This document shows positions 54,222 through 56,560 of a stretch of DNA of 56,821 nt, one piece after another (the first letter of the stretch is position 1; each line of letters begins with the position of its first letter). The stretch spans positions 1-56,821 of the forward strand of contig SUTQ01000014.1 in NCBI GenBank assembly GCA_015062805.1, written 5' to 3'. The position numbers were made by a program, and so were the translations under genes. The notes beneath the pieces were generated by a model. The model was not told the origin of the DNA, searched no databases, and worked only from the letters and a program-made list of their open reading frames with translations. Source of the DNA: Methanosphaera stadtmanae. Lineage in GTDB: Archaea; Methanobacteriota; Methanobacteria; Methanobacteriales; Methanobacteriaceae.

Positions 54222-56159
54222 ATGGAGGTGTTAACCATTTATGAAATAGAAGAAATTAAGGGAGTAGGCGATAAATTAATTAAAAAAATTATACAAACAT
54301 ATGGAAGCTATGAAAAATTTGAGGAATCCATTAAAAACTATGACATAGAAAAATTAATGAACATACCGGGAATCAGTCAAAAAATAGCATTAGATATTAT
54401 CAGAAAAATACATAAAAATGATGACAATCCGTTTTTAAAGACCGAACAATCAGAAAAAATATACAATGAAATCATCAACAAAATTCTTGACTTTGCAAAC
54501 ACGGACTATGCGAAAACAAGAGTACTTCTGTTAAGTCCGACAACAGATTACACTAAAATAAATCAGACCCAGAATTTAATAAAAACAACACTTGAAAGCA
54601 CGGAAAACCAGGATTATGGTATTATAAGAGACTTATATGAAAAAATTAAACCGTTAAACAATGACATAAAACCAAAATTCAATGATGAATATGCAATAGT
54701 ATGTGAAGACTATGAGGATTACCTTTCTTTAATTCAAAAGGGATTCGACAGATACTGTAACATATTTGCAATAGAAGACCATATGAATCTTGAAGAGTTT
54801 GAATTCATAATATACCTCTATAACAACTACAATGTAGATCCCGGAGAAGCAAACAACATAGTATCAATAAGCAATCAGAGTCCTGACTACGAAATTCAAC
54901 CGAACATTACCCTTGAATATTACATACAGAACCGGGAAATACTGGAAAATGTATACCAGCTAAGACAATACCTTGGAATGGAAAGCTGTATTGGTGAAGC
55001 ATTGGAAGCTCTTGATGCCATAAAAGTTGAAACCCAGAATAAAGTTGCAATAACTGAAATAATAGAAGAGATTAAAGACAAAGTAAATGAAAAATTGAAA
55101 AATGAAATAAAAAATGTTGCATTAGAAGGGGATGAAATATTACTCTTACTGAATGATGAAGACCTACCTCCAAAATTAATGAACATTTTCGATAACGTGT
55201 TGGATGAAGCAAGAGAAGAACTATCAAACAAGACAGGATTACTATTCGATCCATTTGTTGTTAAATATCCTGTAGAAATAGATGAAAACGAATTAAAAAG
55301 AGTACAAGAAAACATATCCGCAAACATACATCTTAAAAAATACGAACAGGAACTAAATGCATGCAGTCTACTGGAAAAATATAGCGAACAAATACAAAAA
55401 GAAACTAAGGAAATAATAGAATATGATTACCAGTTAACATTAGCCAGCTTCACAAAGTTCTATGACTTAAACATTCCAACAATAGGTGACACGTACCAAC
55501 TAAAAGGAAGCCTACACCTGACATTGAAAAATGAAGAAAAAATCAATAAAACTGAAATGCAAAAAATAGACTATAATCTTGATCAGGACAACAACATCAT
55601 ATTATTAACAGGAGCTAATAGTGGTGGAAAAACAACTCTCTTAGAAACGTTAGGACAACATTGTATAATGACACATATGGGACTAGGCGTATGTTCACAG
55701 GAAGCTACAATCCCGCAAACGGATGAAGTATATTATTTTACAAAAAAACATTCACTCAATGCAGGTGCATTTGAAACATTCATAACTTCTTTCATCCCTG
55801 TGACAATAGGAAAAGAAAAAAAATTAGTATTGATTGATGAATTAGAATCAATAACCGAATTGGAGGCCGCGATAAAAATAATCATAGGATTCATAGAACA
55901 CATACAGAACGATAAGTCATATGCAATAATTGTTACACACATGGCACCTGAAATATTAAAAAGGACAGATAATATAAAAATCAGAACCGATGGAATCGAA
56001 GCCAAGGGATTGGATGAAAACTATAATTTAATAGTTGACAGAACACCAAAAATAAATTACTTGGCAAACAGTACACCAGAATTAATATTAAGAAAAATAT
56101 ACGAAAAATCAGAAGAACCATTGAAAAGCGTGTACAAAGATATTCTAGATAAATTCTAG
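54222..56159 (+). CDS. MutS-family (MutS2-like) ATPase with N-terminal HhH
   Basis: 645 residues. A helix-hairpin-helix tandem (about 5-65: IEEIKGVGDKL, LMNIPGISQKIA) precedes a long helical core and a MutS-type ATPase, Walker A LTGANSGGKTT near 465, Walker B VLIDELESIT. No MutL-binding or Smr domain is seen. It is probably a junction- or recombination-linked MutS relative, not mismatch repair. GGAGG (54224-54228) overlaps the ATG itself; ATT at 54237 has the ideal spacing from that site, making the true start uncertain. Confidence 0.85.
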   Translation: MEVLTIYEIEEIKGVGDKLIKKIIQTYGSYEKFEESIKNYDIEKLMNIPGISQKIALDIIRKIHKNDDNPFLKTEQSEKIYNEIINKILDFANTDYAKTRVLLLSPTTDYTKINQTQNLIKTTLESTENQDYGIIRDLYEKIKPLNNDIKPKFNDEYAIVCEDYEDYLSLIQKGFDRYCNIFAIEDHMNLEEFEFIIYLYNNYNVDPGEANNIVSISNQSPDYEIQPNITLEYYIQNREILENVYQLRQYLGMESCIGEALEALDAIKVETQNKVAITEIIEEIKDKVNEKLKNEIKNVALEGDEILLLLNDEDLPPKLMNIFDNVLDEAREELSNKTGLLFDPFVVKYPVEIDENELKRVQENISANIHLKKYEQELNACSLLEKYSEQIQKETKEIIEYDYQLTLASFTKFYDLNIPTIGDTYQLKGSLHLTLKNEEKINKTEMQKIDYNLDQDNNIILLTGANSGGKTTLLETLGQHCIMTHMGLGVCSQEATIPQTDEVYYFTKKHSLNAGAFETFITSFIPVTIGKEKKLVLIDELESITELEAAIKIIIGFIEHIQNDKSYAIIVTHMAPEILKRTDNIKIRTDGIEAKGLDENYNLIVDRTPKINYLANSTPELILRKIYEKSEEPLKSVYKDILDKF

Positions 56160-56183: not shown

Positions 56184-56200
56184 GATAAAATTAGAATAAT

Positions 56201-56277
56201 ATTGCCTGTTTACTAACTCTCCAGATCACAGGTAGATTACCAACATTCCTCACCGAGCAACCCTCGTACCAGGCAAT
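56201..56277. ncRNA. Candidate structured RNA, tRNA-sized, strand unknown
   Basis: A 77-nt segment of about 47% G+C in DNA that is otherwise near 20-25%. It is closed by a perfect 8-bp stem, ATTGCCTG (56201-56208) with CAGGCAAT (56270-56277), extendable by TAC/GTA across a small internal loop. Inside, CGAG/CTCG (56253-56265) and GGTA/TACC (56231-56241) can form two short hairpins. No tRNA T-loop motif, SRP, RNase P or box C/D signature is visible. Raised GC in an A+T-rich archaeon is a known mark of RNA genes. Not identified. Confidence 0.5.
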
Positions 56278-56403
56278 TAACATAAGTTAATAAAAATAGT
56301 ATGTTTAAACTAGTATTTAGAAATAACGAAAATTAATTAGAAAAAAATAGAAGCATAAATTTACTACAAAAATCAGAAAAAACTACATAATAAATTCCAA
56401 GTA

Positions 56404-56436: not shown

Positions 56437-56560
56437 GGCCGGCAACTTTCCGAAATTCCCATAAGCTTACCACCTATAGTACAAAACAGAACGTAGATAG
56501 ACTTTATTACTGAGATCGAGACGAGATCAGATGTGACCCTATCGCTATGGTCGCCGTACC
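56437..56560 (-). rRNA. rrf: 5S ribosomal RNA
   Basis: About 124 nt on the minus strand. The ends pair as helix I (GGT-A-CGGCGAC with GTTGCCG-GCC, with the usual bulged A). Internal landmarks match archaeal 5S rRNA: GACCATAGCGATAGGG, the loop region CTCGTCTCGATCTCAG, the AATAAAGTC segment (usually GTTAAGCC), and GTACTATAGGTGG near the 3' side. No 23S or 16S sequence lies in the 260 bases upstream or downstream, so it appears to be a stand-alone copy. Confidence 0.93.

Follow-up and report, generated by a model that had tools for sequence, protein, structure and literature searches.

A predicted box H/ACA guide RNA for helix 69 of 23S rRNA, in single-hairpin form, downstream of the 5S rRNA gene of Methanosphaera stadtmanae

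The window analysed here is a 56,821-nucleotide (nt) stretch of Methanosphaera stadtmanae DNA (GenBank assembly GCA_015062805.1, contig SUTQ01000014.1). Close to its far end, positions 56201-56277 were described in an earlier sequence-only reading as a tRNA-sized structured RNA adjoining a 5S ribosomal RNA (rRNA) gene. A recount gave the same 36 G or C among 77 bases, and the 5S gene does lie alongside (Table 1). The covariance model built for the family matches the window at 56197-56278, and the RNA is a single-copy minus-strand element located 158 bp downstream of 5S. The interval is indeed part of a structured RNA, but only the second hairpin (SL2) of what is elsewhere a two-hairpin molecule. 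We consider it very probable that it represents SL2 of an archaeal box H/ACA guide RNA for U1915, and probably also U1917, of 23S rRNA, reduced to one hairpin in the window's lineage (Escherichia coli position numbers were assigned in this analysis from sequence motifs).

A DNA search of relatives recovered the minus-strand sequence from 14 other Methanosphaera genomes at 91-99% identity and from other genera and a second family at 73-84% identity, with one copy per genome; the relatives carrying it are Methanobrevibacter and other Methanobacteriales. Length differences of one and two bases among these relatives disfavour a coding sequence. A covariance model of both hairpins (SL1 and SL2) matched 84 of 151 Methanobacteriales genomes, covering 17 of 19 genera, and a model of SL2 only matched an equal number (84/151). 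Several complete genomes gave no model match; because rRNA regions read N in the genome copies searched and seven of the eight non-matching genomes checked were also without a detectable 5S gene, such misses are uninformative on true absence. Copies of the guide RNA on contigs binned as Bacteroidota and Micrarchaeota (L127, L128, L156) look like mis-binned Methanobacteriales DNA.

The covariance search that the sequence-only reading had proposed was run and matched none of the 4227 families of Rfam 15, permissive thresholds yielding chance matches only; a plasmid collection likewise held no match to the guide RNA. The same reading had set aside tRNA, signal recognition particle (SRP) RNA, RNase P RNA and box C/D RNA, and the ARAGORN and Rfam scans are consistent with this. 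A tRNA or transfer-messenger RNA was rejected since neither ARAGORN nor Rfam gave a tRNA match, RNase P RNA since RF00373 is absent at the locus and the RNase P RNA lies on another contig, and SRP RNA and a 5S fragment since neither matched. No account of the guide RNA in Methanobacteriales was found in the literature searched, with most subscription papers and all supplements outside its scope.

Folding energy sets the interval only moderately apart from shuffled sequence (z about -2 on either strand, with 7/200 shuffles as good), so that the case is made by conservation, the stem on its own being weak evidence. Although a z-score of this size is what a chance G+C-rich island or a non-functional fossil could give, we place almost no credence in that explanation, which is refuted by order-wide conservation and by compensatory changes. 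The latter were counted in an alignment of 68 distinct SL2 sequences, in which the upper helices were not used in aligning. Here 98.3% of the cells were paired, and 94 double-sided changes were observed as compared to 23.8 in shuffles, while sliding the partners by 1-3 columns lowered pairing to 26-55%. The lower stem and the helices on either side of a kink-turn (K-turn) are supported by this covariation. The comparison across relatives had been called for at the outset, with a lack of stem conservation named as a refuting result, and the stem is conserved.

In the family the SL2 lower stem reads UGCCUGY/RCAGGCA, 7 bp (6 in Methanosphaera). The 8-bp stem originally drawn is real as complementarity, since 56201-56208 and 56270-56277 pair perfectly, but its two outermost A-U pairs share bases with the ANA box, and only the inner 6-7 bp form the stem under selection. 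Neither of the small inner hairpins seen by eye or in the minimum-energy fold is among the covarying helices. These instead enclose a K-turn whose tandem G.A and A.G are invariant (68/68 rows), with an inner pair that is G-C in 34, A-U in 24 and U.G in 9 sequences, and a C-stem pair that is G-C in 49, C-G in 18 and A-U in 1, next to an invariant G-C. The 3-nt loop is NNU, on a single strand between the A.G and the invariant G-C. Above a bulge of 3-4 nt stand two covarying pairs (G-C/G.U/A-U and G-C/A-U/U.G), followed by G.U/G.A/U.U. The outer A's of the ANA box are present in 68/68 sequences, and its middle base is A in 42, U in 18, C in 6 and G in 2. Both the K-turn and the ANA box depend on the strand, and they point to the minus strand as that of the RNA. 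The early hint of an H/ACA guide was correct as to class, given the minus-strand AUA box, the K-turn and a pocket that matches rRNA; it had been drawn from a plus-strand ACA two bases past the stem, which is found only in the window's closest relatives, and the plus-strand H/ACA reading was rejected for this lack of conservation.

Table 1. Predicted guide RNA gene, its parts and flanking features in the window (all RNA letters are those of the minus strand)
Feature	Position	Strand	Remarks
Predicted H/ACA guide RNA gene, single-hairpin form	56195..56292	-	Ends approximate; 5' end inferred from TATA-like box
SL2 lower stem, 5' strand UGCCUG	56270..56275	-	Both-sided changes at 6/7 family pairs
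SL2 lower stem, 3' strand CAGGCA	56203..56208	-	Pairs U-A/C-G, G-C/A-U, U-A/C-G/A-U etc.
SL2 pocket, 5' guide side UACGAGGGUUG	56258..56268	-	GAGGGUU in 83/83 loci; complementary to 23S UAACCCUC 3' of U1915
SL2 pocket, 3' guide side GUUAGUAA	56210..56217	-	GAGUUAGU in 81/83 loci
SL2 upper (GA) stem, outer part CUC	56255..56257	-	Partner GAG 56217-56219; 100% of cells paired
SL2 upper (GA) stem, outer part GAG	56217..56219	-	Partner CUC 56255..56257
SL2 K-turn, bulged strand CC-UGU-GA-U-CU	56223..56232	-	C stem, 3-nt loop, G.A/A.G, U.U, inner stem
SL2 K-turn, continuous strand GG-U-GA-GG	56248..56254	-	Same column evidence as bulged strand
SL2 ANA box (AUA)	56200..56202	-	14 nt past pocket-closing G
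TATA-like box TAAATACTAG, putative own promoter	56310..56319	-	Similarly spaced A/T-rich box aligned in L008-L010; by eye, without statistics
5S rRNA gene, upstream of guide RNA gene	56437..56558	-	Rfam RF00001, 60.5 bits

Most genomes outside Methanosphaera show conservation reaching ~75 nt further upstream on the minus strand, where the full RNA consists of adjacent hairpins SL1 and SL2 (~150-160 nt together). SL1 has a 7-bp lower stem, CUGAUGC/GCAUYRG, with helix covariation, a pocket formed by GGUC and AACCCA, a GA stem CUUCUA/UAGAAG and a K-turn UGA/UGAU. The K-turn motif GA ... UGA was found, using a loose pattern, in 65 of 66 loci, and the SL1 ANA box, AUA in 55 loci and ACA in 11, also lies 14 nt past the closing pair. 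Published descriptions (PMC4652768) give archaeal H/ACA RNAs 7-9 bp in the lower stem and a K-turn, and place the ANA box 14-16 nt away from the pair that closes the pocket; both hairpins display this stem, spacing and K-turn together with target complementarity. The guide RNA belongs to a known class, box H/ACA, but is absent from Rfam.

To find the targets, stacking energies were scanned along Methanosphaera 23S rRNA (from L173, a single-contig genome), with 500 shuffles. The SL1 pocket gave a single standout site, CUGGGUU[U]A-GACCGU, which corresponds to U2586 and was equalled by 1/500 and 0/500 shuffles. The top site for the SL2 pocket was GGGUAAC[U]A-UAACCCUC, corresponding to U1915 in helix 69 (7/500 and 3/500 shuffles). 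With U1915 as the target, the 5' guide forms 8 bp and GUUA in the 3' guide pairs with UAAC, G56217 opening to pair with C1914; when the register is shifted by two, UAGU pairs with ACUA and the pocket addresses U1917. Retention of GAGUUAGU across nearly all loci is what would be expected if both registers matter. In Haloferax volcanii, hairpin HP1 has been assigned to 2586 and hairpin HP2 to 1915 and 1917 (PMC2584109), and the top sites of SL1 and SL2 coincide with these assignments.

Several points weigh against the assignment. The target scan covered 23S rRNA only; the SL2 pocket is irregular, with a 5' side of 11 nt and an upper stem bearing the 3-4 nt bulge; the SL2 GA stem has ~8 paired layers (plus the bulge) as compared to ~10 in productive folds and 9-10 in SL1; the 3' guide-target duplex is 4 bp only; minimum-energy folding gives the window RNA a structure other than the covarying one; and the TATA-like box is a putative assignment by eye. 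An unusually long guide loop of 23 nt has been described for Pa40.2. With the scan confined to 23S rRNA, and with an equal SL2 site arising in 1.4% and 0.6% of the 23S shuffles, the RNA could be an H/ACA guide whose SL2 truly targets another RNA (16S rRNA, tRNA or mRNA), the helix 69 match being fortuitous. We regard this as improbable, since the match sits exactly on the uridine pair assigned to the equivalent second hairpin of Haloferax, SL1 of the same RNA independently finds its expected site, and the conserved 3' guide G70/U71 (alignment columns), idle in the U1915 register, is used in the U1917 register.

The irregular pocket would also suit an L7Ae-bound K-turn RNA with a non-modifying role, such as a helix 69 rRNA-processing chaperone or a processed rRNA-transcript spacer, as would the same-strand 5S gene found upstream of the guide RNA in 31 of 66 loci examined. 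However, the gap to 5S varies from 154 to 1448 nt and the RNA is therefore not a fixed spacer, the remaining loci show no 5S upstream within the available sequence (1-1.6 kb, often short), and the invariant, correctly spaced A's of the ANA box are a Cbf5 feature; a non-modifying role thus appears slightly less probable still than a different target. A guide function directed at helix 69 is the reading that we prefer.

Archaeal H/ACA RNAs form pseudouridine together with Cbf5, Nop10, Gar1 and L7Ae; of these four, the gene located was that of Cbf5, in the window's own genome (479 bits). By analogy with studied archaeal H/ACA ribonucleoproteins, L7Ae would bind the SL2 K-turn, and Cbf5 the lower stem together with the ANA box. 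With both sides of the pocket paired to 23S helix 69, Cbf5 would turn U1915 into pseudouridine, and U1917 would probably be modified too, through the shifted register. In most Methanobacteriales the preceding SL1 would guide U2586, near the peptidyl-transferase centre, and its decay in Methanosphaera and loss in the window's lineage would have produced the one-hairpin RNA. We infer that the predicted guide RNA is transcribed, assembled into a ribonucleoprotein and used in pseudouridylation.

Outside Methanosphaera, 61 of 66 loci have kept an intact SL1 pocket, as compared to 0 of 15 Methanosphaera loci. In the window's own Methanosphaera lineage SL1 is gone and a single-hairpin gene is left; in the window and in L008-L010 the TATA-like box stands immediately upstream of SL2, at the position SL1 would occupy. 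Most Methanosphaera (L014-L020) carry in SL1's place, ~60-110 nt ahead of SL2, an A/T-rich hairpin that lacks both pocket and K-turn, and a conserved AUCUGUAAUGGA motif follows this hairpin. The SL1 pocket has also been lost from five loci in three genera (L102-L106), in three of which (L102-L104) the SL1 K-turn and AUA box are kept and the pocket sides are mutually complementary, zipped into a helix. A non-exhaustive search of Methanosphaera for a displaced U2586 guide, using the pattern ACGGTC-N30..60-AACCCA, gave 9 scattered matches, no more than the reversed control and none conserved. From its sequence setting, the SL2 gene is probably an independent gene that lost SL1 in the window's lineage. 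A tentative extension, plausible to us without being favoured, is that the U2586 guide has disappeared several times among gut-associated Methanobacteriales, all of which kept the helix 69 guide, so that their ribosomes would be without pseudouridine 2586 and SL2 alone would serve 1915 and 1917 via its two-register 3' guide.

Upstream of SL1, most loci carry a leader, GTCRYATC...ATGAC, in which a small 5' hairpin is possible (GUCAU/AUGAC); long insertions occur there in L081, L088 and L100. A/T-rich TATA-like boxes, judged by eye, precede the conserved GTCRYATC in other genera. On the other side of the guide RNA gene, a convergent open reading frame of 645 amino acids (window 54222-56159, plus strand) contains the ATP-binding motif GANSGGKTT and is apparently MutS-like.

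A conserved Methanobacteriales RNA gene without an Rfam match now has specific predicted target uridines, located at the ribosome's decoding and peptidyl-transferase centres, and the covariance model can be used to annotate the guide RNA across Methanobacteriales. The natural series of two hairpins, zipped SL1 and no SL1 bears on which archaeal rRNA pseudouridines are dispensable.

The HP1/HP2 RNA of Haloferax volcanii (PMC2584109; Hvo1/Hvo2 in PMC4652768) likewise has two hairpins, with K-turn and ANA box, to which U2586 and then U1915 and U1917 are assigned as targets. It differs from the Methanobacteriales RNA, in which the hairpins are adjacent and SL1 is degenerate or absent in Methanosphaera. 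The Methanobacteriales RNA is its functional counterpart and probably its orthologue, the two having been compared by their assigned targets. In Pyrococcus Pab40 and Pf7 and Archaeoglobus Afu4, a hairpin guiding the U1915 equivalent (stem III, Pa40.3 or Af4.3; P. abyssi position 2016) also adjoins a sister hairpin, although the Pyrococcus RNA has three hairpins and other targets (2588, 1932) and the Rfam models do not match the Methanobacteriales RNA. A motif related to Pa40.3 and guiding the 1915 equivalent has been reported in Methanocaldococcus jannaschii. The eukaryotic small nucleolar RNAs U19 (human) and snR191 (yeast) similarly use one H/ACA RNA for the equivalents of both 1915 and 1917 (PMC2584109), but have an H box and no K-turn.
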